Shown here in pieces: positions 1 to 9,811 of a DNA stretch of 64,000 nucleotides. The position numbers and the translations under genes are program-made. The notes beneath the pieces were generated by a model. It was given only the letters and a program-made list of their open reading frames with translations. It did no database searches and was not told where the DNA came from. Every line of letters begins with the position of its first letter. Position 1 is the first letter of the stretch. The stretch spans positions 146,256 to 210,255 of the forward strand of contig JAFDWN010000007.1 of the NCBI GenBank assembly GCA_018268465.1. The letters run 5' to 3'. The stretch comes from Actinomycetota bacterium. Lineage in GTDB: Bacteria; Actinomycetota; Actinomycetes; Mycobacteriales; Mycobacteriaceae.

Positions 1-2
1 TC

Positions 3-248
3 ATGAAGGTTCTCCGAGAGCGGAGTTTGGTCGGTGAGCTGGTCCGCTGGGTCACCGAGGACGGTGAGGTCGGCTACGACGCCGAGATCAATGGCACTGA
101 TGGCAACGACGCCGGACTGTGCGAGGTCGCCATCAGCAGCATCCGCAGCCTCGACGCCCTCGCCAAAGTCGCGGGCGATCTTCGCCTTGAGTGGGAGATC
201 ATCACCGGCGTCTACGCCGATCAAGGCGTGACCTGGAGCGCCGTCTGA
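3..248 (+). CDS. small hypothetical protein of the element
   Basis: An 81-residue acidic protein of no family I recognise. It starts at the ATG at base 3, but the frame is cut by the window edge, so an upstream start is possible. The middle (residues 20-60) is rich in Asp, Glu and Gly with a short helix-prone stretch near SSIRSLDALAKVA. The stop overlaps the start of the next gene (TGATG), so the two are probably translationally coupled. It sits where phage satellites carry small replication or regulatory accessory genes. Function unknown. Confidence 0.6.
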   Translation: MKVLRERSLVGELVRWVTEDGEVGYDAEINGTDGNDAGLCEVAISSIRSLDALAKVAGDLRLEWEIITGVYADQGVTWSAV

Positions 249-517
249 TGGACACCGAATCGGTTGTGGCCCAGCATCGCCGGCGGGCACTCGCGCCTCC
301 TTGTCGCCTATGCGGCGTCGATACCGGCGAACTCTGTATAAGCCATGTCACCGGGGAGCCGATGCCCGACCGGATCCATTTCACCCGGGCGTTGCGGGTC
401 GAACCGCAACCCGACAGCCGACGCCGCCAGCACGACCGGCGCACACAGGCCGCGGCCCGGATGCCCGTCATGGCCTGCGGCTGCACGGACTCACTTCGCC
501 ACCGGTGCGGGTGGTGA
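248..517 (+). CDS. small Cys/His-rich protein, possible zinc ribbon
   Basis: An 89-residue basic protein starting at the ATG that overlaps the previous stop codon by one base. Near the N-terminus it has a CRLCG pair followed by a further Cys and His (residues about 18-33), and near the C-terminus CGCTDSLRHRC, which together could bind zinc. Small zinc-ribbon proteins with CxxC motifs are common upstream of actinophage primase genes, but I do not recognise a specific family. A frame starting further upstream exists, but it would overlap the preceding gene. Function unknown; DNA or RNA binding is a guess. Confidence 0.55.
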   Translation: MDTESVVAQHRRRALAPPCRLCGVDTGELCISHVTGEPMPDRIHFTRALRVEPQPDSRRRQHDRRTQAAARMPVMACGCTDSLRHRCGW

Positions 518-524
518 TGCCGAA

Positions 525-2039
525 GTGACTGATGATCGCCGCGCGCATATCGAGCGCGGCAAGGTTGTTGCCCAGGAGGTCGCCGGCCAGCGGCCCCCTG
601 GCGCACGCCTGCTCGACGAGGTTCACGCATCCATTCAGCGGTACTGCGTCCTGCCCGGCGAGCACGAGTCGGTGGCGGTGACGTTATGGGTCGCGTTGAC
701 GCATCTACTGTCCTGCTTCGACTACGCCCCGCGGCTCGTGATCCGATCGGCCGAGAAGCGGTCCGGGAAATCACGCCTGCTCGAAGTCGTCGACGCGCTC
801 GTGTACTCGCCGCTGCGCGCCGTGAACGCGACCGTCTCGTATGTCTTTCGGTCGCTGGCCGCCGATCCGCCTCCCACACTGCTTTTCGACGAGGTCGACA
901 CCATCTTCGGATCCAAGAAGGTCGCCGAGAACAACGAGGAGCTGCGCGGCCTGCTGAACGCCGGATTCCAGCGCGGCCTGCCGTTCGGCCGGACCGTCGG
1001 CCCCAACCACGTCCCGGCCGAGTTCTCGACCTTCGCCATGGCTGCGCTCGCCGGCATCGGCCGCCTACCCGAAACAATCGAGGACCGCGCAGTCGTCGTC
1101 GTGATGAAACGCCGAACCGCCGGTGAAAAGGTCGCGCCCTACCGGATCAGCCGCGACGGCCCCAAGCTGCACGCACTGCGGAACCGAGTCGGCGAATGGG
1201 CCGACATGGTGCGCGAGCGCGCCGAAGCTCAAGGCGAGCCGGAGCTGCCCATCGAGGACCGCGCCGCCGACCTCTGGTCCCCGCTGGTCGCGGTGGCTGA
1301 CCTCGCCGGTGGACAGTGGCCAGAACTAGCTCGAGCGGCTGCCTCCGCACTCGTCGAAACGGCAGCCGAAGAGGACACCACCCGCTCGACGAACATGCAA
1401 CTACTCGAAGACATCCGCGGCGTGTTCGAGGGCAAGTTCATGAAGAGCGCTGACCTGTGCAGCAAACTCCGGCAACTGCCCGAATCGCCGTGGGAACAGT
1501 TCGGACTCAACCCTTCAAAGCTGGGCCGAAGACTCCGCGAATACGCCATCAAGACCCGCCACTCCGACGACAAAACCGAGCGCGGCTACCACCTCCCCGA
1601 CTTCCGCGACACCTTCGCCCGCTACCTCCCACCCCCAGAAAAGGCGTCCGAAGGTGTCCAAGGCGTCCAACAAACCTCTGACCAGCAACGACAGCAGGAC
1701 ACCTTCACCCACCCCAAGGCGTCCGCAGCCCACACACAAGGCGTCCAGGACACCACCGCGGACACCTTCCCAACCAACAAGGCGTCCCAGCAAAACCCCA
1801 GCTCAAACCCCATACCGGACACCATGGACACCATGGGACACCTTTTTTCCGAACCCGGAGAGAAACCCAGCGGCAACGTGACCGCCATTCCCTCCTACAA
1901 CCCACACCGCCGCAAACGCACCCGAGGCAAGTTCCAACCACCCGCCGGACCCGGCCGCTGCCCATCCTGCGGATGGCACATCGAATCCATGGGCCACGCC
2001 GACGACTGCGACACAGCAAACGAGGAGCAGACAGCATGA
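525..2039 (+). CDS. DUF3631 primase/helicase-like ATPase
   Basis: A 504-residue protein from the GTG at 525, chosen because it lies just after the preceding stop; earlier in-frame ATGs would overlap that gene. It carries a Walker A-like segment AEKRSGKSRLLE (about residues 72-83), a Walker B-like TLLFDEVD (about 117-124), and the DUF3631 signature around GIGRLPETIEDRAVVVVMKRR. DUF3631 modules occur at the C-terminus of actinophage and satellite primase-helicases, so a role in replicating the element is likely. No N-terminal primase domain is visible, so it may work as a helicase loader or with host primase. The last 130 residues are a low-complexity linker with repeated KAS, GVQ and DTF words, followed by a CPSCGW zinc-finger-like end. 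The linker is encoded by a DNA repeat cluster annotated separately. Confidence 0.8.
   Translation: MTDDRRAHIERGKVVAQEVAGQRPPGARLLDEVHASIQRYCVLPGEHESVAVTLWVALTHLLSCFDYAPRLVIRSAEKRSGKSRLLEVVDALVYSPLRAVNATVSYVFRSLAADPPPTLLFDEVDTIFGSKKVAENNEELRGLLNAGFQRGLPFGRTVGPNHVPAEFSTFAMAALAGIGRLPETIEDRAVVVVMKRRTAGEKVAPYRISRDGPKLHALRNRVGEWADMVRERAEAQGEPELPIEDRAADLWSPLVAVADLAGGQWPELARAAASALVETAAEEDTTRSTNMQLLEDIRGVFEGKFMKSADLCSKLRQLPESPWEQFGLNPSKLGRRLREYAIKTRHSDDKTERGYHLPDFRDTFARYLPPPEKASEGVQGVQQTSDQQRQQDTFTHPKASAAHTQGVQDTTADTFPTNKASQQNPSSNPIPDTMDTMGHLFSEPGEKPSGNVTAIPSYNPHRRKRTRGKFQPPAGPGRCPSCGWHIESMGHADDCDTANEEQTA
1641..1844. repeat. iteron-like cluster of 9-bp repeats, candidate replication origin
   Basis: Within the 3' end of the DUF3631 gene the word aaggcgtcc occurs at 1641, 1660, 1716, 1738 and 1779, and the variant aaggtgtcc at 1651. 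Its exact reverse complement ggacacctt occurs at 1697, 1760 and 1836. Shorter ggacacc copies start at 1748, 1817 and 1826. The same 9-mer is thus present about ten times in both orientations within 204 bp and ends at a T-tract (1843-1848). Clustered iterons near the replication gene are the classic form of satellite and plasmid origins. Repetition at the protein level alone would not require both orientations. Function is inferred. Confidence 0.5.
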
Positions 2040-2311
2040 GCAACCAATTCCCTACCACCGAGCAGACCGCAGCCGCACCCGTCGACGCCCTGCTCATCGC
2101 CCGCGCCTACCTCCGCGGAGACGACGACGCCACCCAAGTCCTCCTCAAGCATTGCGATCCCTGGTCAACCACGCTGCAGCTCGCAGGCTGGCTGCGCACC
2201 GCCCTCGCCGAAGCACTCCACCGCGGCGCCGGGCACCAACACGAGGACCACACTGTCGAGGACGTGCTCGACCGGTGGATCGCCACGGTCCGAGCCGAAG
2301 CCGACCAGTGA
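2036..2311 (+). CDS. small hypothetical protein, helical
   Basis: A 91-residue acidic protein whose ATG overlaps the stop of the DUF3631 gene (ATGA) and whose stop overlaps the GTG of the HNH gene (GTGA). It is predicted mostly helical, with a segment rich in Ala and Leu (about residues 15-30 and 50-65) and an acidic/His stretch HQHEDHTVEDV. I recognise no family. Small helical proteins between the replication gene and HNH nuclease are common in actinophages and satellites. Tight coupling to both neighbours argues that it is a real gene. Confidence 0.6.
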   Translation: MSNQFPTTEQTAAAPVDALLIARAYLRGDDDATQVLLKHCDPWSTTLQLAGWLRTALAEALHRGAGHQHEDHTVEDVLDRWIATVRAEADQ

Positions 2312-2745
2312 CCCTCAAGCCCTGCCTGGTCTGCGGGCAGCCTGGACGCCGCAATCGCTGCCCCGAGCACCTGCCCAAGCGGCCCAACAAGCACCTCCCG
2401 CGCCACCACCCCCACATGAACGGCGGCCGATGGAAACGGCTGTCCGTCGCAGCCCGACGCCGCCAACCATGGTGCCTGGACTGCGGCGCCGTCGCCGACC
2501 TCACCGTCGACCACGTCATCCCCATTGCCGAGGCACCAGAACTGGCCTACGAACCACGCAACCTCGCTGTCCGCTGCCGACCCTGCAACAGCCGCCGCGG
2601 CGCACGCTGCACCGACGCCGAACGCGACGCCGTCCTCGAAGCCATCACCGCGCCCCCGACCAGGGGGGATGCCCTAAACGGTGCCCTCCACCGCCGCGAC
2701 GCCAAGGCACGGGGGGCATTACACACCCCTGGGGGGTATGCGTGA
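2308..2745 (+). CDS. HNH endonuclease next to terminase
   Basis: A 145-residue protein from the GTG at 2308 that overlaps the previous stop. It shows the HNH fold markers in order: CLVCGQ and CPEH zinc-ligand pairs, WCLDCG, the catalytic DHVIP (about residue 69), and NLAVRCRPCNSRRG. Phage HNH proteins beside the large terminase help cut at cos sites during packaging, as in HK97. No recognisable small terminase gene is present, so this protein may share that job. Its C-terminal coding region contains three six-G tracts annotated separately. An in-frame start at 2152 is rejected because it would overlap the preceding gene entirely. Confidence 0.85.
   Translation: MTLKPCLVCGQPGRRNRCPEHLPKRPNKHLPRHHPHMNGGRWKRLSVAARRRQPWCLDCGAVADLTVDHVIPIAEAPELAYEPRNLAVRCRPCNSRRGARCTDAERDAVLEAITAPPTRGDALNGALHRRDAKARGALHTPGGYA
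2663..2736. other. three G6 tracts at the end of the HNH gene, possible cos region
   Basis: Runs of six G occur at 2663-2668, 2711-2716 and 2731-2736, each followed by a similar word (gatgcc, cattac, tatgcg). G-rich repeated words just before the terminase gene are where actinophage cos and packaging sites often lie. No cohesive-end sequence can be proven here, and the tracts lie partly in coding sequence, where Gly and Arg codons could explain them. Weak evidence. Confidence 0.25.
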
Positions 2746-2747
2746 GA

Positions 2748-2948
2748 TCAGCGAATGCGGACGGGCTTGGACGGATGCTTCTCGCCGGGGCTGACGTGTG
2801 TCCAGTAGTTGGGGCTATAGAGCTTCACCTGCTCGCCGTCCTTCCTGACCTCAATGAGGCCCCACTCCTTGACCTCGATCGAGTGCGAATCGTCGTAGGA
2901 GTCGTAATCGGCTTTGTCGCCGCGAGCGTAGAAGATCGTGAATGCCAT
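2748..2948 (-). CDS. small antisense-oriented accessory protein
   Basis: A 66-residue protein on the - strand, the only gene of the element facing left. It has natural composition, with alternating hydrophobic and charged residues, and ends in a basic tail (KHPSKPVRIR). Its DNA is clearly less GC-rich than the flanking genes. Its stop lies 3 bp from the HNH stop, and its start is 14 bp from the terminase start, so it fills the gap exactly. I recognise no family; the beta-rich pattern could suit a small regulator, antitoxin or cargo gene. Different base composition suggests separate acquisition. Confidence 0.6.
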   Translation of the reverse strand: MAFTIFYARGDKADYDSYDDSHSIEVKEWGLIEVRKDGEQVKLYSPNYWTHVSPGEKHPSKPVRIR

Positions 2949-2962
2949 TCCGGGATGGTGTC

Positions 2963-4435
2963 ATGAGGGCTGGCCCGAAGGCGTCGGTTGATGCCAGCCC
3001 GTTACCGTGGCGGCCGCGGTCGACGGGTTCAGCGCGGTTCGCCCGGTTCTGTGAGCGGTACGTGAAGGTGCCGAAGGGCACCGGGGCCCGGTCGCCGTTG
3101 AAGCTGCGGGCGTGGCAGCGCGATCTGGTGGGGTCGGTGCTTGACGCGAATCCGCAGCCGCGGACGGCGGGCTGGATGCTGCCGCGCGGTTCGGGCAAGT
3201 CCAGCTTGATGGCGGCGTGGGGTTTGTACGAGTTGTTCATGGGCGGCGAGGGCGCGACGGTCTGTGTCGTCGCAGTCGATGAGCGGCAGGCCGGCATTGT
3301 GTTCAACGTCGCCCGTCGTATGGCTGAGCTCGACGAGGATCTTGCCGCGCGGGTGCAGGTGTTCAAGGAACGGCTCTACATCCCCGAACGCGATGCGCAT
3401 TTCCACTGTCTGCCTGCTGAGCCGAAACGCCTTGAGGGATTGGATTACACGCTGGCGATCCTGGACGAGGCCGGCGTGGCCAACCGTGACAGCTACGAGG
3501 TGTTGACGCTGGCGCAGGGTAAGCGGGAACGGTCGACGCTGGTGGCGATCGGCACGCCGGGGCCGAACCTTCAGGACCAGGTGTTGCTTGATCTGCGGGC
3601 GTACGCCGCCGAGCACCCCGAGGACGGATCGCTGGTGTGGCGGGAGTTCTCCGCGGCCGGGTTCGAGGACCACCCCGTGGACTGCGCGCACTGCTGGGAG
3701 CTGGCCAACCCGGCGCTGGATGACTTTCTGCACCGCGACGCGCTGCACGCCCTGTTGCCGCCGAAGACCCGTGAGTCGACGTTCCGGCGGGCCCGGCTGT
3801 GCCAGTTGGCCGGTGACACCGAGGGTCGATTCCTGACCCCTGATGTCTGGGACAACCTGTCCACGAGTCAGCCGGTCCCGGATGGCGCCGAGGTGGTCAT
3901 CGCTCTGGACGGCTCGTTCTCCGATGACACGACGGCGCTGTTGGTCGGAACTGTGGCGGCCGAGCCGCATTTCGACACGGTGCGGGTGTGGGAACGTCCA
4001 CCGGGTGAGGACGCCTACCGGGTGCCGATCGCGCAGGTGGAGGACACCATCCGGGAGTCGTGCCGGCGGTGGCGGGTGGTGGAGATCGTCGCTGACCCGT
4101 TCCGCTGGACCCGCACGCTGCAGGCGTTGGAGTCTGAGCGGCTGCCGGTGGTGGAGTTCCCGCACTCCCCGGCCCGGTTGACCGCGGCGACGACGGATCT
4201 GTACAGCGCCGCGGTGAATGGCCGTATGTCGCACAGCGGCAACGCGAAGCTGGCTGCCCATGTCGGGGCCGCGGTGATCGTTGAGGACGCCCGCGGGATG
4301 CGCCTCTCGAAGCAGTCCCGGTCCCGCACCGCACCCAAGATCGACCTGGCCGCGTGCCTGGTGATGGCCCATAGCCGCGCCACGTGGCGCGCTACCCACA
4401 AAACACGAAGGAAGACAAGGAGTTTCGTCGCATGA
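2963..4435 (+). CDS. phage terminase large subunit
   Basis: A 490-residue protein. The N-terminal ATPase has Walker A PRGSGKSS (about residue 74) and Walker B LAILDEAG (about 155). The C-terminal RNase H-like nuclease shows VVIALDGSFSDD, EIVADPFRW and a late Asp in KIDLAACLV, all typical of TerL. It would pump DNA into procapsids and cut concatemers. The ATG at 2963 is chosen for a GGGATGG Shine-Dalgarno-like stretch 7 bp upstream; an ATG at 2942 would overlap the start of the antisense gene. Its stop overlaps the portal ATG. Length is normal for the family. Confidence 0.92.
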   Translation: MRAGPKASVDASPLPWRPRSTGSARFARFCERYVKVPKGTGARSPLKLRAWQRDLVGSVLDANPQPRTAGWMLPRGSGKSSLMAAWGLYELFMGGEGATVCVVAVDERQAGIVFNVARRMAELDEDLAARVQVFKERLYIPERDAHFHCLPAEPKRLEGLDYTLAILDEAGVANRDSYEVLTLAQGKRERSTLVAIGTPGPNLQDQVLLDLRAYAAEHPEDGSLVWREFSAAGFEDHPVDCAHCWELANPALDDFLHRDALHALLPPKTRESTFRRARLCQLAGDTEGRFLTPDVWDNLSTSQPVPDGAEVVIALDGSFSDDTTALLVGTVAAEPHFDTVRVWERPPGEDAYRVPIAQVEDTIRESCRRWRVVEIVADPFRWTRTLQALESERLPVVEFPHSPARLTAATTDLYSAAVNGRMSHSGNAKLAAHVGAAVIVEDARGMRLSKQSRSRTAPKIDLAACLVMAHSRATWRATHKTRRKTRSFVA

Positions 4436-5814
4436 CCGACAACCCGCTACTGCTGTCGTTGTTGCAGCGGCTCGACGAGCCAGCCGCCCGCTACCACGAG
4501 CTCGATCTGTACTACCGCGGTGAGCAGCCGTTGGCGTTCCTGTCGCCGGAGGCGAAAACCGCTCTGGGGCAACGGTTCGGCCGTATGGCCTCCAACATTC
4601 CGCGGCTGGCGGTGACGGCGCTGGCCGAGCGGCTGCGCCTCACCGGGTTCACCGGCGACGCGGCCGACCTGTGGGCGGACTGGATCCGCAACGATCTCGA
4701 TCAGGAGGCCGGGGTGGCGCACCGCGAGGCCCTGCTGCTGGGGGACTCGTTCGTCATCGTCTGGGCAGACCGGGTGGGCCGGCCCAAGGTGACCATCGAG
4801 TCGGCGAAACAGGTTGCTGTGCAGCTTGACCCCGGCACACGGCAGATCACCGCCGCGGTGAAGCGGTGGGAAACGAAGACCACCACCGAGGCCGTACTGT
4901 ACGAGCCCGATCAGATCACCCGGTATCGGGCCAACGCCACCGGCGCCACCGTGCACGGCTTCACCGTGGTCGAAACGCTGGCCAACCCACTGGGTGTGAC
5001 ACCGGTAGTCGGTATCCGCAACTCCGACCGCATCCTGTCCGAGCGTGGCTGTTCGGAGATCGACGACCTCAAACCGTTGGTCGACGCGTTGAACAAATCC
5101 TTGGCCGACATGATGGTCACGTCGGAATATGTTGGCCGCCCGCGCCGCTGGGCCACCGGCATCGAACTCACCGAGGAACCCCTAGTCGACGGCGACGGCA
5201 ACCCCGTGGTCGATGTGGACGGCGAGATTGTCATGACCGAGGCCAACCCCATCGCGGAAAACCACCGCGCGATGATTTCGGAGAACGACCAGGCCAAATT
5301 CGGTCAGCTCCAGTCCGCGGACCTGTCGGGCTACGAAGCGTCAGTGCGGGTCATCTTGGGCCAGATCATGGCCGTGTCAACACTTCCCGCGCACTACGTC
5401 GGCGTGTTCACCGACAACCCCGCCAGCGCGGATGCGCTGCGCGCCGCCGAAGCATCGTTGACCGCCCGCGCCGAGGCCCGCCAGGCCACGTTCGGCCGCG
5501 CGTGGGAACAAGTGGCCAAGCTGATGGTCGCGGTCCGTGATGGCCGTGACCCGCTGCAGGTCGAGGCCCGGGTGCAGTGGGCCGACGCCGCCACCCGATC
5601 GGTCGCCCAGGAGGCCGACGCCGTGGTCAAGCTGCACGCTGCCGGGCTGCTGCCCGCGTCCTACGCACTGGCCAAGCTCGGCTACAGCGATGACGAGATC
5701 CTCGAGATCCGTGCCGCGCGGCGCGCCGAAGCCCTCGACAGCCAGGGCGTCAACCTGGTCAGGTCGGCGCCGGCCGCCGACGCAGTACCCGCTCAGCCCC
5801 GGCCGGCGGCATGA
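4432..5814 (+). CDS. phage portal protein (SPP1 gp6-like)
   Basis: A 460-residue protein starting at the ATG that overlaps the terminase stop. The sequence LDEPAARYHELDLYYRGEQPL at the start, followed by an adaptor region, a long acidic insertion (LVDGDGNPVVDVDGE, about residues 245-260) and the helical VILGQIMAVSTLPAHYVG segment, matches actinophage portals of the SPP1 gp6 family. It forms the dodecameric ring through which DNA enters the head and to which a tail must attach. Its stop overlaps the start of the MuF-like gene. It appears complete, arguing against decay. Confidence 0.9.
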   Translation: MTDNPLLLSLLQRLDEPAARYHELDLYYRGEQPLAFLSPEAKTALGQRFGRMASNIPRLAVTALAERLRLTGFTGDAADLWADWIRNDLDQEAGVAHREALLLGDSFVIVWADRVGRPKVTIESAKQVAVQLDPGTRQITAAVKRWETKTTTEAVLYEPDQITRYRANATGATVHGFTVVETLANPLGVTPVVGIRNSDRILSERGCSEIDDLKPLVDALNKSLADMMVTSEYVGRPRRWATGIELTEEPLVDGDGNPVVDVDGEIVMTEANPIAENHRAMISENDQAKFGQLQSADLSGYEASVRVILGQIMAVSTLPAHYVGVFTDNPASADALRAAEASLTARAEARQATFGRAWEQVAKLMVAVRDGRDPLQVEARVQWADAATRSVAQEADAVVKLHAAGLLPASYALAKLGYSDDEILEIRAARRAEALDSQGVNLVRSAPAADAVPAQPRPAA

Positions 5815-6818
5815 GCGTCGTCGACGATTTCCAATCCGCCACCGAGGACCTGGCCACCCTGACGGTGGCCGCGGTCCGGGCGATCTATCTGCAGTTGGTG
5901 GCGCGGCAGATCAGCCGCGATGACGCGGCCCTCCTGGTGGCGGGCGCCGTCAACCGCGCCAACGCGTCAGCGGTCACCCTGGCTGACGCGTATCTGGCCG
6001 CTCAGATTGAGGAAGCGGTCGGCGTCCCCGTCCCCACCACCGGGGTGGCGCCCGTCGACGCCTCCGAACGACTCCTCAAGGCCGCCACAACGATCCTGAC
6101 CGAGGCACCCAAAACCAGCTTCACCCAAGCCGAGATCCGCGGTCTGCTCCGTTCAGTCGGTCTGGACCCGCAGCCGTGGGACATTGCAGCGATCACGAGG
6201 GAGGTCAACCGCTCCCTGGCCGACCGGCTCGACGAGATGGACCCCGCACCGGACTGGACCCCCGCCGATATCGCCGCGGCCCGCGCCGAGCACGGCACGT
6301 TCGCGATGGCCGACTTCATCGAGCTGGTCAACGAGAGCCCGCGAAAGCTCAGTGAGCGTGGCCTGTTCCCGCCGCCCCCACCGCACACCGGCGGCATCGA
6401 CCCCCACCGCGACGCCGCCCACGACGCATGGGAAGCGCAACTGGCGCCGGACCTGAACCCGGACGACTACACCGACCACCCGCCGATCTGGGAACCCGAA
6501 CCCCAGGACGCGGAAACGCGGCTGGAACGCCTCGCCCGCTGCGAACCCCTCGAAGCCGCCCAGAACGCCGCCCAGGCCGCAATCGAACGTCAAGACCTCG
6601 TCGAGGGCTGGACCCGGCAGATGGACGACGACCCGTGCCAACTGTGCCGGTGGTGGTGGCGCGAAGGCCGAATCTGGCCGAGCAACCACCCATTCCAGTC
6701 GCACAAGGGCTGTAACTGTCAGCCCCGGATCGTGCTCGCCACGAACATCGGATCCACCCAATACACGCGCCGTCTGGCGCGCGCGCACGCCGACACCGGC
6801 ACGCGTATCCCACGATGA
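5811..6818 (+). CDS. MuF-like minor head / capsid maturation protein
   Basis: A 335-residue protein following the portal with an ATGA overlap, the standard place for MuF-like proteins. The N-terminal half is helical. The C-terminal part holds the conserved Cys/His cluster of this family, DPCQLCRWWWREG and HKGCNCQPR (about residues 275-310). A Pro-rich linker (FPPPPPH) near residue 185 joins the halves. Such proteins enter the procapsid with the portal and are sometimes fused to toxins; no toxin domain is visible here. The following scaffold gene has its own strong ribosome site. Confidence 0.8.
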   Translation: MSVVDDFQSATEDLATLTVAAVRAIYLQLVARQISRDDAALLVAGAVNRANASAVTLADAYLAAQIEEAVGVPVPTTGVAPVDASERLLKAATTILTEAPKTSFTQAEIRGLLRSVGLDPQPWDIAAITREVNRSLADRLDEMDPAPDWTPADIAAARAEHGTFAMADFIELVNESPRKLSERGLFPPPPPHTGGIDPHRDAAHDAWEAQLAPDLNPDDYTDHPPIWEPEPQDAETRLERLARCEPLEAAQNAAQAAIERQDLVEGWTRQMDDDPCQLCRWWWREGRIWPSNHPFQSHKGCNCQPRIVLATNIGSTQYTRRLARAHADTGTRIPR

Positions 6819-6829
6819 AAGGAGAAACC

Positions 6830-7282
6830 ATGTCCGACAACCACACCCCCGACGAAACCACCACCGAGGTGATGGAGAGGTCGGAAACCGACCCGGCAAC
6901 CGACGTCACGTCCGGCGCGGCCGACACCCCCGAAGGGTCCGATTCAGAATCGAACCCCGAGACCTTCCCCCGCTCCTACGTCGAGGAACTACGGCAGGAG
7001 AACGGCCGCTATCGGCAACGCGCCCAACAGGGTGACGCCTACGCGCAACGCCTGCACACTGAACTCGTCCGGGCCACCGGCCGACTCGCCGACCCCACCG
7101 ACCTACCCTTCGCCGCAGACCACCTCGACGACAGCGACAAGTTGTCACTCGCACTCGACGAACTGCTCACCCGCAAACCACACCTCGCCAACCGCCGACC
7201 CGCCGGCGACATCGGCCAAGGCCCAACCCCATCCGGCGGTAGCGTCGACCTCGCCGCAATCCTGCGGCAACAAGCCCAATAG
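6830..7282 (+). CDS. capsid scaffold protein
   Basis: A 150-residue acidic protein with an N-terminus rich in Thr, Glu and Asp, then a coiled-coil-prone stretch RSYVEELRQENGRYRQRAQQ (about residues 46-65) and a short hydrophobic C-terminus. That is the usual form of scaffolds preceding actinophage capsid genes, where they guide procapsid assembly. The start at 6830 is fixed by the AAAGGAG site ending 5 bp upstream; an ATG at 6815 has no such site. No protease motif is visible, so it is a scaffold rather than a protease-scaffold fusion. Confidence 0.75.
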   Translation: MSDNHTPDETTTEVMERSETDPATDVTSGAADTPEGSDSESNPETFPRSYVEELRQENGRYRQRAQQGDAYAQRLHTELVRATGRLADPTDLPFAADHLDDSDKLSLALDELLTRKPHLANRRPAGDIGQGPTPSGGSVDLAAILRQQAQ

Positions 7283-7301
7283 ATATGAGGGGGAACAGAG
7301 T

Positions 7302-7475
7302 ATGGCAACTGCGGGGATCAACGAGAAGAACGAAACTGCCAAGGCGTTCTACACGGCGATTGGGGCTGAGCTTGAATTGGTCGCCGCTGGAGAGTACACA
7401 TCCAAGTTGGCTGCTCTCGAGCAACTGGCTCGCATCTACGCGCTGGTAGCTGAAGCACCTGTGTCGAGAGCCTGA
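7302..7475 (+). CDS. small helical protein between scaffold and capsid
   Basis: A 57-residue protein with ATG at 7302, preceded by an AGGGGGA ribosome site. It is predicted to be two helices (NETAKAFYTAIGAELE and TSKLAALEQLARIYALVAE). The codons are noticeably less GC-rich than those of the scaffold and capsid genes. I know no family. Position suggests a head accessory, a scaffold helper or an inhibitor of helper-phage assembly; none of this can be shown from sequence. Confidence 0.6.
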   Translation: MATAGINEKNETAKAFYTAIGAELELVAAGEYTSKLAALEQLARIYALVAEAPVSRA

Positions 7476-7504
7476 TCATCTCGTCGGGAACAGGGGTAAA
7501 CTGG

Positions 7505-7531
7505 TGGGGTCGGTCCTGGTGGCCGGCCCCA
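7505..7531 (+). terminator. stem-loop in the leader of the capsid gene
   Basis: Nine base pairs (one G-T) join 7505-7513 to 7523-7531 around a 9-nt loop. No long T-run follows, only tcgttg. It lies between the 57-aa gene and the capsid gene, so it may attenuate readthrough or protect the capsid mRNA end. The rest of 7476-7591 shows nothing else. Confidence 0.4.
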
Positions 7532-7591
7532 TCGTTGTCCTGGTGACACGGGTTCGTTGAATCCCACTTCCCTTGTCACGTAAGGACTCTC

Positions 7592-8740
7592 ATGGCTGAA
7601 TCCACCGCCACCAATCCCACCCTGCTCGCCGACCAGGTTTCCTCGCTGCTCGTGCAGCCCCTCGAAGCCGCCAGCGTCGTCCTATCCAGCGGCCCGCGGA
7701 TCTTCGACACCGCCGGCGTGCTGCGCATCCCCAAGCTCACCGGGTCGTCCACGGTCGGGTTCGTCGGCGAAAACGAACTCATCCCCTCCGACCACGACAC
7801 GAACTTCGACGAGGTGGTGCTGATGCCCACCGACCGCAAGTCCATCAAGGTCATTGAGCGCTACTCGCGGGAGCTGGCCCGCCAGGCCGTCATCGGCATC
7901 GACGCCACCCTCAAGAACCGCTTGGTGAAGGTGGTCTCCGACAAGCTCGACACCGCCCTGTTGACCGGCAAGGGCCAGGCCACCAACGAGGTGCAGACCG
8001 TCACGATCACGGGTTCGCCCACCGGCGGCACCTTCACCCTCAGCTTCCGCGGCGCCACCACCTCCGGGCTGAACTACAACGCCGCCGCGTCCACCGTGCA
8101 GACCGCGCTGCAGGGCCTCGCGACCATCGGATCGGGCAACGCCACCGTCGCCGGATCGGCCGGCGGCCCCTACACCGTGACGTTCGCCTCCGCGCTGGCC
8201 GCGACCGCTGTCGACCAGCTCGTGGCCAACGGCGCCAGCCTCACCGGCGGCACACCCGCCATCGCTGTGACCACCACCGCGGAAGGAGAGTCGGCCAACG
8301 GTATCCGCGGCATCATCAACCAGCCCGGCGTGCAGACCGGGGAGCTCGACGTCACCGACGCCGATTCTCTGTTGGACGCGATCGCGCTGGCGTCGGCAGC
8401 CGAAGTCACCCCCACCAGATGGTTCCTGTCCGGGGCCGACTTCATCGCACTCCGCAAGCTCAAGGACGGCAACGACCGCTACCTGATCGAATCCGACGTC
8501 ACCAAGGACACCACCTACCGACTGTTCGGCTTGCCGGTCACCGTGACCAACAAGATGGCCACCGGCAAGGGCATCCTCGCCGACACCAGCCAGATCGCCA
8601 TCGCCCGCGACCTCGCCCCGTCGGTCACGATCCTGTCCGAGCGATACGCGGACTACGACCAGATCGGCATCCGCGTCGTCACCCGCTACGACCTCGGCCT
8701 TCTGCACCCGCAGGCCGTCATCGTCCTCACCGCCGCCTGA
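7592..8740 (+). CDS. HK97-fold major capsid protein with an inserted Ig-like domain
   Basis: A 382-residue protein. The N-terminal arm and P-domain (GVLRIPKLTGSSTVGFVGE, SIKVIERYSRELARQAVIG) and the C-terminal end (GLLHPQAVIVLTA) match HK97-type actinophage capsids. Residues about 131-232 form an insertion rich in Thr, Gly and Ala with the beta-repeat pattern NEVQTVTITGSPTGG and FTLSFRG, which looks like the Ig-like modules seen on other actinophage head and tail proteins. It may decorate the capsid surface. Length without the insertion is near 280, close to the family core. The gene follows a 116-bp leader containing a stem-loop. Confidence 0.9.
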   Translation: MAESTATNPTLLADQVSSLLVQPLEAASVVLSSGPRIFDTAGVLRIPKLTGSSTVGFVGENELIPSDHDTNFDEVVLMPTDRKSIKVIERYSRELARQAVIGIDATLKNRLVKVVSDKLDTALLTGKGQATNEVQTVTITGSPTGGTFTLSFRGATTSGLNYNAAASTVQTALQGLATIGSGNATVAGSAGGPYTVTFASALAATAVDQLVANGASLTGGTPAIAVTTTAEGESANGIRGIINQPGVQTGELDVTDADSLLDAIALASAAEVTPTRWFLSGADFIALRKLKDGNDRYLIESDVTKDTTYRLFGLPVTVTNKMATGKGILADTSQIAIARDLAPSVTILSERYADYDQIGIRVVTRYDLGLLHPQAVIVLTAA

Positions 8741-9060
8741 TGCAACCCGAAATCGTCCCCGACCACGCGGTGCCCGGGCTGCTGGCCGCCACACCAGACA
8801 GCCCGAGCGCGGTGATCCCGCTCATCACGGCGATGGCCCGGGCATACACCCGGGGCCGCGGCTTCGACGACGACGGCCGGCCCAACGACGAGGTGGCCGC
8901 CGTCATCACCACCGCGTCGGCGCGGCTGGCCGCCAACACCAAGCAGCTCAACCAGTCAGCCAGCATGGACGGGTTAGGCGCCGACACCCGCTCGTTCTTC
9001 ACCGGCTGGACCCTGGCCGAGCTGTTCGTGCTCAACCGCTACCGTCGGCGAGCCATGTAG
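8740..9060 (+). CDS. head-tail connector (adaptor) protein
   Basis: A 106-residue helical protein whose ATG overlaps the capsid stop (TGATG). The pattern VIPLITAMARAYTRGRGF, VITTASARLAAN and FFTGWTLAELFVLNRYRRR matches the small adaptor proteins that sit under the portal in actinophages. It is the last gene of the element. In a full phage, stopper, tail terminator, tail tube and tape measure would come next, but 250 bp on the integrated element ends. It could let a helper tail join this head. Confidence 0.8.
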   Translation: MQPEIVPDHAVPGLLAATPDSPSAVIPLITAMARAYTRGRGFDDDGRPNDEVAAVITTASARLAANTKQLNQSASMDGLGADTRSFFTGWTLAELFVLNRYRRRAM

Positions 9061-9310
9061 ACCGGGTGGTGGCTGGCGTCAAACCCGAACCCAGGCTGAC
9101 ATGACCTGCTCCCCGGGCAAGGACCGCCACGACCGCCGGTCGCGCGCGAGCGATACCTGCGCCAAGCCACCACCCCCAACGCTTATTCACCTGCAATAAC
9201 CGAGAATCGGCGAGAACAGCCGAGATCTAGTTAAGGCAGAATAGAAACAACATCGCAGGTAATGAGGAATTATCGGGACTGCTCAGCAATCCCAAGGACA
9301 CCCGGCGTGG
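9061..9310. other. non-coding arm next to the attachment core: inverted repeat and phased repeats
   Basis: No gene is seen. An inverted repeat joins 9064-9078 to 9160-9175 (15 pairs with one bulged base) around 81 nt, containing a smaller gaccg/cggtc pair. At 9201, 9211 and 9221 the word CGAGA recurs with an exact 10-bp spacing, one helical turn, about 90-110 bp from the core. A further inverted pair, attcacctgc (9185) and gcaggtaat (9255), flanks it. Phased repeats beside an att core are typical arm-type sites for integrase or excisionase; this is inference. Confidence 0.45.
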
Positions 9311-9351
9311 TAATCCGCAGGTCCCAGGTTCGAGCCCTGGTGGGGGCACCA
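9311..9351 (+). other. attachment core: 3' half of a tRNA-Lys gene
   Basis: The 41 bp begin in the anticodon loop (taatccgcagg), continue through the T arm (CCAGG-TTCGAGC-CCTGG) and end in the acceptor strand TGGGGGCACCA. The 5' half of the tRNA is absent: the preceding bases cannot form D and anticodon arms. The match is to the mycobacterial tRNA-Lys(UUU) 3' half, which I recall as the integration target of Tweety-type phages. So this is the att copy distal to the intact tRNA, which should lie at the other end of the element. Confidence 0.8.
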
Positions 9352-9354
9352 CAC

Positions 9355-9376
9355 ACCCGCGGCGGCAACCGCGGGT
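9355..9376 (+). terminator. stem-loop after the tRNA 3' end
   Basis: A perfect 8-bp stem joins acccgcgg (9355-9362) and ccgcgggt (9369-9376) with a 6-nt loop, 3 bp after the CCA. It would have ended the original tRNA transcript. The remaining bases to 9412 hold nothing recognisable. Confidence 0.55.
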
Positions 9377-9412
9377 ACACCCGTTGAGCTGGGCTTGACG
9401 CCCCACGACGCC

Positions 9413-9811
9413 CTACGGCTCGGTGACGGGCGCCGGGATCGGCCCGATAGGGATCGGCGGCGCGGGGATGCTGACCGGCGGCGGGGACGCCAGCACGGCC
9501 AGCACCATGTCGATGCGCCGGGTGAGCGCTTCGAAGAACTCCGGGACCACCGAGATCGGATCGATGCGGGAATCGAGTCGCACACCCATCAGCGTGGCGC
9601 GGTCGAGATCCACCACGACGTCGGTGGGGCCCGTCAGGCTCACGGACTCCAGCGCGGCCGCCCGTTGCGCCAGCTCCTGCCCCGCGGCCCGCACCGACGC
9701 GTCCACGGTGACCGCCGACAGCGCCGCGCCCATACCGACCACGGCCACCGACGCGACGGCGACACCGATCGATCGGGCCCTGCCGCACCGGCGGCCGACG
9801 ACTCGCGCCAT
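9413..9811 (-). CDS. small membrane-anchored protein, Pro-rich C-terminus
   Basis: A 132-residue protein with a basic N-terminus, one membrane segment (SIGVAVASVAVVGMGAALS, about residues 14-32), an extracytoplasmic helical region and a Pro-rich end (PPIPIGPIPAPVTEP). I recognise no domain. It lies 53 bp downstream of the Band-7 gene on the same strand and is probably co-transcribed, so it may be a partner of that membrane protein. The ATG start at 9811 has a poor ribosome site, so the exact start is uncertain. Confidence 0.55.
   Translation of the reverse strand: MARVVGRRCGRARSIGVAVASVAVVGMGAALSAVTVDASVRAAGQELAQRAAALESVSLTGPTDVVVDLDRATLMGVRLDSRIDPISVVPEFFEALTRRIDMVLAVLASPPPVSIPAPPIPIGPIPAPVTEP

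Follow-up and report, generated by a model that had tools for sequence, protein, structure and literature searches.

The stretch of DNA analyzed here, 64,000 nucleotides long and referred to as the window, corresponds to bases 146256-210255 of contig C70 in the mycobacterial genome G000 (6.88 Mb, 72 contigs), and it opens within an integrated element of 11.83 kb that encodes the components of a phage head. The presence of a head-only element at a tRNA gene is seen directly in the sequence, and its gene content and relatives make it highly probable that the element is a capsid-forming phage satellite, which would borrow the tails of helper phages. That it is a satellite and not the remnant of a phage is inferred from the existence of a family whose members resemble one another in length, in the type of insertion site and in gene content, from the coding constraint on its genes, and from the observation that no tape measures were recognised near closely related portals, while the distant portal relatives belong to tailed phages. 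The satellite layout put forward in the initial annotation is supported.

The limits of the element were set by its att sites. The window holds the right-hand 9.35 kb (1..9351), and the left 2,476 bp lie outside it (G000:C70:143780-146255), so that the extent first assigned, 1..9351, was correct at its right end, an att core, and too short on the left. The second att copy was located by a DNA search of the genome with window positions 1-9800 as the query, and the region C70:140000-158000 was taken as locus L007. The two copies, of 41 bp, show no mismatch and are offset by 11,786 bp, giving an element of 11,827 bp with both copies included. The left core (C70:143780-143820) constitutes the last 41 bases of an intact tRNA-Lys(ttt), found by ARAGORN at L007:3746-3821, and this gene, together with the perfect repeat, bears out the proposed integration at a tRNA gene. 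Reading the sequence to the left up to the tRNA-Lys, the test that had been suggested, revealed the att copy and an integrase and no recognised tail or lysis gene, which rules out a tailed prophage cut by the window edge. Rfam gave no match inside the window's portion of the element. Among 40 relatives searched with the element and its flanks, at least six (G017, G018, G019, G021, G023 and G024) carry the tRNA-Lys site without this element: the match reaches the end of the tRNA-Lys and the right flank lies about 10-12 kb closer than in G000. G011 shows the same flank spacing, but its listed match stops short of the tRNA-Lys; in G014 about 8.3 kb separates the flanks, and in G020 (locus L174) an 80% identical integrase and family head genes occupy the same tRNA-Lys.

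All 15 proposed proteins were scanned against Pfam and 10 of them against PHROGs; profile hidden Markov models (HMMs) were also run over the 120 family loci described below. The features, including open reading frames (ORFs) of uncertain status, are the following:

Left of the window, minus strand: tyrosine integrase, 393 aa (PF00589, 4.4e-20)
Left of the window, minus strand: XRE repressor, 207 aa (HTH_3, 7.3e-5)
Left of the window, plus strand: Xis-like HTH_17 protein, 64 aa (HTH_17, 2e-8; PHROG 'excisionase and transcriptional regulator', 2.1e-9)
L007:6049-6504, 3' part at window 3..248, plus strand: 151-aa gene with blastp relatives in L167 and L088 and no Pfam or PHROG match
345..2039, plus strand: DUF3631 ATPase, probable replication/helicase protein (PF12307, 3.6e-52; start codon uncertain)
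2036..2311, plus strand: 91-aa ORF, with no relatives above threshold in the 120 loci
2308..2745, plus strand: HNH endonuclease adjoining the terminase (PF01844, 1.3e-8; HMM match in 94 of 120 loci)
2748..2948, minus strand: 66-aa antisense-family protein between HNH and TerL, no Pfam match
2942..4435, plus strand: terminase large subunit, TerL (PF20441, 1.3e-10; PF03354, 4.3e-9; phrog_9, 2.1e-78)
4384..5814, plus strand: portal, SPP1 gp6-like (PF05133, 3e-33; phrog_104, 6.9e-108)
5811..6818, plus strand: MuF-like minor capsid protein (C-terminal Cys/His motif read by eye)
6815..7282, plus strand: scaffolding protein (phrog_4708, 1.4e-4, weak; family HMM in 104 of 120 loci)
7302..7475, plus strand: 57-aa ORF between scaffold and capsid, which may not be a gene
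7592..8740, plus strand: HK97-fold major capsid protein (PF05065, 1.5e-30; phrog_10, 4.3e-37)
7970..8299, edges approximate, plus strand: domain of roughly 100 aa inserted in the capsid (phrog_10909, major tail protein, 3.8e-20)
8740..9060, plus strand: putative head-to-tail adaptor, 106 aa, the final gene before attR (matched by its family HMM in 94 of 120 loci)
9311..9351: attR core, a perfect 41-bp copy of the tRNA-Lys 3' end

The ATPase, HNH, terminase, portal, scaffold and capsid genes that had been listed as the element's own are all open and have family support, which for the scaffold comes from the family HMM beside the weak PHROG match; the scaffold family gene sits between portal and capsid in the loci laid out. 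The MuF-like gene is likewise open and has blastp matches in 56 loci (the best over about residues 228-335), while its label rests on the motif read by eye, with no Pfam, PHROG or phage match. A description of the genes as all intact and tightly overlapped holds for their being open and is interrupted by the antisense gene between HNH and TerL. No family match was obtained for a head maturation protease (Pfam on all 15 proteins, PHROGs on 10); the MuF-like proteins of phages Bongo and MrMagoo are annotated 'capsid maturation protease'. The replication genes vary among relatives.

Neither tail nor lysis genes, the modules expected of a complete temperate phage, were recognised anywhere in the 11.83 kb by these scans, as had been claimed for the part ending at the att core, and the 250 bp between the last gene and that core contain no forward ORF of at least 50 aa. 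The same absence extends to the relatives. In 71 loci (copies included) the portal is at least 43% identical to that of the window and at least 4 kb lie beyond the head genes; 19 forward ORFs of at least 600 aa found near such close portals (18 loci, copies dropped) matched 20 PHROG families, none of them for tail proteins. As a control, five loci with portals at most 38% identical have a long ORF at the tape-measure position, and PHROGs recognise four of the five. Among loci with at least 4 kb past the head genes, portal identity jumps from 43%, with no tape measure recognised, to 38%, where tailed phages begin. For 19 relatives delimited by direct repeats, 96 of 107 unlabelled ORFs were scanned, from a set that holds ORFs of about 67 aa and above; they matched 16 Pfam families, none for tail or lysis, and among the 25 listed of the 48 PHROG families matched there was none either, except a head-tail adaptor, the other 23 families having one member each. 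Ten connector-side ORFs scanned singly against PHROGs gave no tail or lysis match, and the other 18 delimited elements were checked for downstream ORFs of at least 600 aa only.

The extent of the family was determined with the window portal as the probe. Of 198 genomes from the same genus, 39 contain a match at E <= 1e-20 (the genome that holds the window is one of them), and in 22 of these the identity reaches at least 71%; G092 (35%) and G041 (27%) lie at tailed-phage distance, and G065 and G122 are fragments. Phage records match in 1,747 of 50,697 cases, all below 60% (34.6% for the best among the matches listed), and eight plasmid records match, the best at 51%. Named genome contigs yielded 38 loci, 25 from named mycobacteria and the rest from Nocardia, Gordonia, Janibacter, Oerskovia and unclassified or distant bacteria, and IMG/VR yielded 130 relatives, of which 80 were kept, many being whole contigs of 9-13 kb. 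HMMs built from the window proteins recognised, in 120 loci of which many are cut contigs, the portal in 120, TerL in 116, scaffold in 104, capsid in 100, HNH and adaptor in 94 each and integrase in 74. After the addition of 40 further genome regions and the removal of copies of named loci, direct repeats delimited 38 distinct elements, the window's included, a count that leaves out loci with no clear repeat, such as the closest relative L157 and the same-site L174. All seven markers are present in 37 of the 38, and 33 have att sites in tRNA genes, representing 21 isoacceptors. Thirty-six measure 10.07-11.83 kb (mean 10.75, standard deviation 0.37), the window element being the largest, and the two outsized ones measure 13.8 kb (L178) and 16.2 kb (L189). 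Such a narrow size range would fit a small head of fixed dimensions.

Coding constraint was estimated as the ratio of nonsynonymous to synonymous substitution rates (dN/dS, Nei-Gojobori), and the values are approximate, since most pairs have a high dS. In the comparison with L157, the nearest relative, the ratio was 0.18 for TerL, 0.16 for the portal and 0.26 for both scaffold and capsid; the capsid gave 0.24 against L181 and 0.30 against L088, and the integrase 0.16 against L174 and 0.14 against L088. Overall, the range 0.12-0.30 covers TerL, portal, scaffold, integrase and the three capsids that share one length class; six closer adaptor pairs within the family give 0.12-0.24. The genes have different nearest relatives (TerL in L039/L080, 86%; portal in L157, 82%; integrase in L088/L174, 80%; capsid in L157, 82%, and L181, 79%, although the L181 portal is only 58% identical), which makes the element a mosaic.

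These data bear on a different origin, in which a tailed temperate phage, inert today, has been stripped of the genes for its tail and for lysis. Mycobacterial prophage-like elements were surveyed in 2014, reportedly with Fan as first author. That survey, in BMC Genomics, proposed mutational decay for small mycobacterial elements, and one of those it describes, which we take to be phiMmcs_1, has similar head genes and one lysin-like gene (PMC3986857, from the parts available). Decay would also be compatible with the tailed phages found as distant portal relatives. It is nevertheless unlikely, given that the same cut between head and tail recurs in elements that share the seven markers (37 of 38), the size range (36 of 38) and tRNA att sites (33), that the integrase and head genes are constrained, and that nothing fills the gap in portal identity between 43% and 38%.

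In the satellite model, the product of the last gene would take up the helper's stopper and tail. The search sequence, 8743-9060, did not include the Met codon, and it gave no functional family match in Pfam or PHROGs. An AlphaFold model built from 74 family sequences (predicted local distance difference test, pLDDT, 87) was compared with the PDB by Foldseek, and the connector of SPP1 gp6/gp15/gp16 (7z4w) and that of mycobacteriophage Douge (8zdj) ranked at the top with probability 1.00, at E-values of 5e-3 and 2e-2, respectively, none being below 1e-3. The model therefore supports a predicted role as head-to-tail adaptor, and with it the single connector named in the initial annotation. In 12 of 12 phages that were opened, the adaptor is followed by a stopper-type connector and then by tail genes to the end of the phage region examined, even if 4 of the 12 label that connector otherwise; the window element thus ends at the head/tail boundary, where phages continue into stopper and tail genes. 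We know of no use for an SPP1 gp15-type adaptor without a tail. This weighs on a further alternative, namely, that the element is a self-sufficient tail-less virus, or that its capsid serves another purpose, such as gene-transfer-agent-like export or another form of release. The complete set of head genes and the lack of a known helper would agree with it; yet an adaptor would have no evident purpose in such a particle, no lysis gene was recognised and some relatives carry phage-type stoppers, which leaves this alternative with a low probability, below that of decay.

About one relative in four has a recognised stopper. Among 86 loci having at least 650 bp beyond the adaptor (some named genomes are still duplicated in this set by IMG/VR copies), a stopper of the Douge/Cosmo/Bongo type (class stA) is found in 23: after the adaptor in 13, in the gap between scaffold and capsid in 5, and upstream on the HNH side in 5, one of them weak. 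This is the sole recognised stopper type, and L008 and L068, the two that were scanned, both hit connector PHROGs; the match of L109 is weak (7e-5). A further 24 loci have an unclassified post-adaptor gene of one of two types (stD in 11, stC in 13, the latter partly doubtful). Both types were assigned from their position: no PHROG match was obtained for L041, L043, L046 or L050, the L046 gene has no phage match, and at least 5 of 13 stC matches are weak and lie in frames overlapping the adaptor. In the remaining 39, including the window element, no stopper was recognised. In 12 of 12 phages opened, the matching connector directly follows the adaptor.

When 15 elements (L190 being a copy of L065) were compared with 8 phages by blastp at E < 1e-3, the genes behaved differently. 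No capsid or scaffold of the 15 matched a phage, 4 of 15 adaptors did (29-35%), as did 15 of 15 portals (25-36%), and the stoppers did in 14 of 14 cases at 33-55%. Between elements, portal, scaffold and adaptor matched in 105 of 105 pairs each and the capsid in 83 of 105, against 39 of 91 for the stopper. Stoppers are not simply better conserved, because phage-phage pairs match in 7 of 28 cases for the stopper against 10 for the adaptor (portal 16, capsid 11, scaffold 11). Individual stoppers point to different phages: that of L049 to Avani-type phages (47.5%, 101 records in all), those of L195 and L068 to MaryV/Cosmo (53.5% and 39.1%, 38 records each), that of L187 to Chaser/Archie/LeBron-type phages (up to 55.1% among the matches listed, 103 records), and that of L008 to Douge-type phages (34%, 98 records). 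The L049 adaptor, for its part, gave one partial match, to a Corynebacterium phage gene annotated as a peptidase. In a maximum-likelihood tree of the stopper (19 elements and 9 phages), well-supported branches force four changes between the two groups, and a single element clade is rejected (approximately unbiased test, p 3.75e-6; Sparky forms a long branch). The adaptor tree (21 elements and 9 phages) has two changes and does not reject a single clade (p 0.324), and in a quick portal tree the elements form one side of a poorly supported branch, with long-branch warnings.

The choice of sequences introduces a selection bias, as 7 of the 8 phages compared were picked through the stopper matches of L049, L068, L195 and L008 (the eighth, Hestia, was found with the portal), four phages were added to the tree from the stopper matches of L187, and the other elements were found with an HMM seeded with the L008 stopper. 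The contrast with adaptor, scaffold and capsid, and the rates among phage-phage pairs, speak against a pure selection effect and do not remove it. Taken together, the stopper pattern suggests exchange with helper phages. The stopper tree gives no direction for it; gain by the elements is the simpler reading because three insertion places are seen in elements and one in phages. We consider possible, at slightly less than even confidence, a more specific model in which portal, scaffold, capsid and adaptor form a private lineage, to which a stopper has repeatedly been added, at any of three places, as an exchangeable plug taken from, or traded with, helpers, and thereby names the helper. If this were true, the helpers of L187, L063 and L127 would be Lclasvirinae-like phages (LeBron and Archie, with Douge grouping with them), those of L195, L067 and L068 Wildcatvirus-like (Cosmo), those of L065 and L196 Mclasvirinae-like (Bongo, Nanosmite) and that of L049 Avani-like, and the elements with no stopper, the window's included, would attach their adaptor directly to the stopper that the helper supplies. 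No report of exchanged stoppers, or of a head-to-tail stopper joined with a satellite, was found in the literature covered, which left most subscription papers outside, and the pattern looks new.

The host genome was also searched for phage-related loci. It contains a second family member on contig C48 (L008) and four further capsid-bearing loci of other types (L201, L202, L203 and L204); L203 has a serine integrase (by eye) and adaptor- and stopper-like genes. A resident helper was sought through four tape-measure families and rejected, since no convincing tape measure was found: phrog_167 gave four matches, of which the one opened was SMC-like by eye and three were unopened, and the same family matches in 14 of 14 control genomes. 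This search also addresses a split phage whose tail genes reside elsewhere in the same genome. The four additional capsid-bearing loci could be seen in its favor; the tape-measure result, with the same three unopened matches, and the recurrence of the element family in many species make it the least probable of the alternatives, with very little in its support.

In the satellite model, a tailed phage would enter the cell or be induced and lift repression, upon which the integrase and Xis would excise an 11.8-kb circle that the ATPase would help to replicate. HNH and TerL would then package the DNA into a small head assembled on the scaffold that the element encodes, the adaptor would take up the stopper and tail of the helper, and the lysis genes of the latter would release the particles. 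Relatives that already possess a stopper of phage type would suit particular tails from the start. Several observations weigh against this model. None of the tape-measure families PF10145, TIGR01760 and phrog_1533 gave a match in the host genome and, with no convincing tape measure there, no resident helper is in sight. The window element names no helper, because its adaptor has no match in phage records and no stopper was recognised in it. No small terminase was matched among the scanned proteins (the PHROG scan did not include the 91-aa ORF, the 66-aa ORF and HNH). The window adaptor gives a dN/dS of 0.52-0.61 against four distant relatives, and two divergent capsid comparisons give 0.82 and 1.04, both probably by saturation. 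Finally, since phiMmcs_1 is described with a lysin-like gene, the absence of lysis genes may not extend to all relatives.

Comparable elements have already been published. The 2014 survey lists capsid, scaffold, portal, terminase, HNH, primase, XRE regulator and integrase for phiBN44_1, and gives sizes of 11.2 kb for phiMCAN_1, 10.9 kb for phiMycsm_1, 9.3 kb for phiRv1 and 10.8 kb for phiRv2, the last at tRNA-Val; an 11.1-kb entry is taken to be phiBN44_1, and the available text names no tail gene for phiBN44_1, phiMCAN_1 or phiMycsm_1 (PMC3986857). Compared by description only, this range of 9.3-11.2 kb and the gene lists resemble those of the present element, which differs from phiBN44_1 in having the DUF3631 ATPase in place of a DNA primase and from phiMmcs_1 in that no lysin was recognised (PMC3986857, in part). 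The initial annotation had named phiRv1 and phiRv2 as the nearest layout, a fair choice for printed layout and size, while phiBN44_1 and phiMCAN_1 look nearer by their printed gene lists. In addition, phiRv1 has a serine integrase, unlike the tyrosine integrase found here. An mSystems survey of 2023 defined candidate phage-inducible chromosomal islands (PICIs) as regions with integrase plus capsid and equated those of slow growers with the phiRv elements; three of the four examples drawn have a tyrosine integrase at a tRNA gene, and some have terminase and scaffold (PMC10654092, in part). The present element shares both traits used there, having integration machinery and a major capsid gene in one phage-like region, and a tyrosine integrase at a tRNA gene with attL and attR. 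That definition is loose, and the available sections neither demonstrate a helper for the Mycobacterium candidates nor mention stopper exchange (PMC10654092).

Capsid-forming PICIs (cf-PICIs), according to the definition quoted in the accessible part of PMC10690885, have their own HNH, TerL, portal, capsid and connector and no tail, and the element likewise has its own major capsid, portal and TerL with HNH beside the terminase. Of the head-tail connectors, which the definition names in the plural, the adaptor is supported by its predicted fold, and no stopper was recognised. Likened by gene list alone, the element differs in having its own scaffold and no recognised small terminase or protease. 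A preprint states that cf-PICIs interact with the tails of a variety of phages (PMC13345588, in part). The Streptomyces satellites MulchRoom and MiniFlayer, as portrayed in the same part of PMC10690885, also have their own large terminase, portal, capsid, scaffold and adaptor, and MulchRoom particles carry a tail of helper length; they were isolated with their helpers and possess direct terminal repeats and a small terminase.

Two further features of the element deserve mention. The domain inserted in the capsid is related to mycobacteriophage tail-protein domains, as indicated by phrog_10909 and by a tblastn search in which it matched 931 phage records, 17 of the 20 listed carrying a minor tail, major tail or tail sheath annotation. 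Capsids of 373-384 aa that contain it account for 6 of 144 entries, a total that counts duplicates and fragments, and the relatives bearing it are L079, L088, L157, L181 and L195 (the last assigned from length and full-length alignment only), whose portals otherwise differ. No fold is claimed for the insert because of its low confidence in the capsid model (10-residue means of about 41-56); possibly, it acts as a built-in decoration. The second feature is the antisense gene. An HMM for which 15 ORFs of the HNH-TerL gap served as the seed gave 25 matches (copies included), all 25 antisense and 21 located between HNH and TerL, with members also in L047, L051, L052, L110, L112, L173 and others. 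In other elements this gap holds other antisense ORFs, of about 150-207 aa with a hydrophobic start or of about 82-97 aa (by eye), and because different types occupy it, the gap looks like a cargo slot.

Some loci depart from the common arrangement. In L043 (14354-18491), the family element has another element next to it: past the tRNA cluster, on its right, there is a second integrase together with a reversed capsid gene. L051/L169 is an 11.2-kb family-like element with portal, TerL and a large antisense ORF, in which scaffold, capsid and adaptor were not recognised; it is possibly a member using foreign heads, or a damaged one. In L189, 7 kb separates adaptor and att. The Nocardia loci L054, L055 and L057 have about 2 kb between adaptor and att, where L055 and L057 contain ORFs of 372-380 aa that match repressor PHROGs.

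Small head-only elements of mycobacteria have so far been classed either as remnants of prophages or as candidate satellites with no known helper. The kind itself is in print; what deserves attention is the scale on which it occurs, the narrow range of sizes and the pattern of stoppers. Nearly one in five of the congeneric genomes sampled holds a member of the family, alike in size and gene content, which argues for live satellites, and the stopper pattern turns the question of their helpers into one about named phage groups that can be tested.

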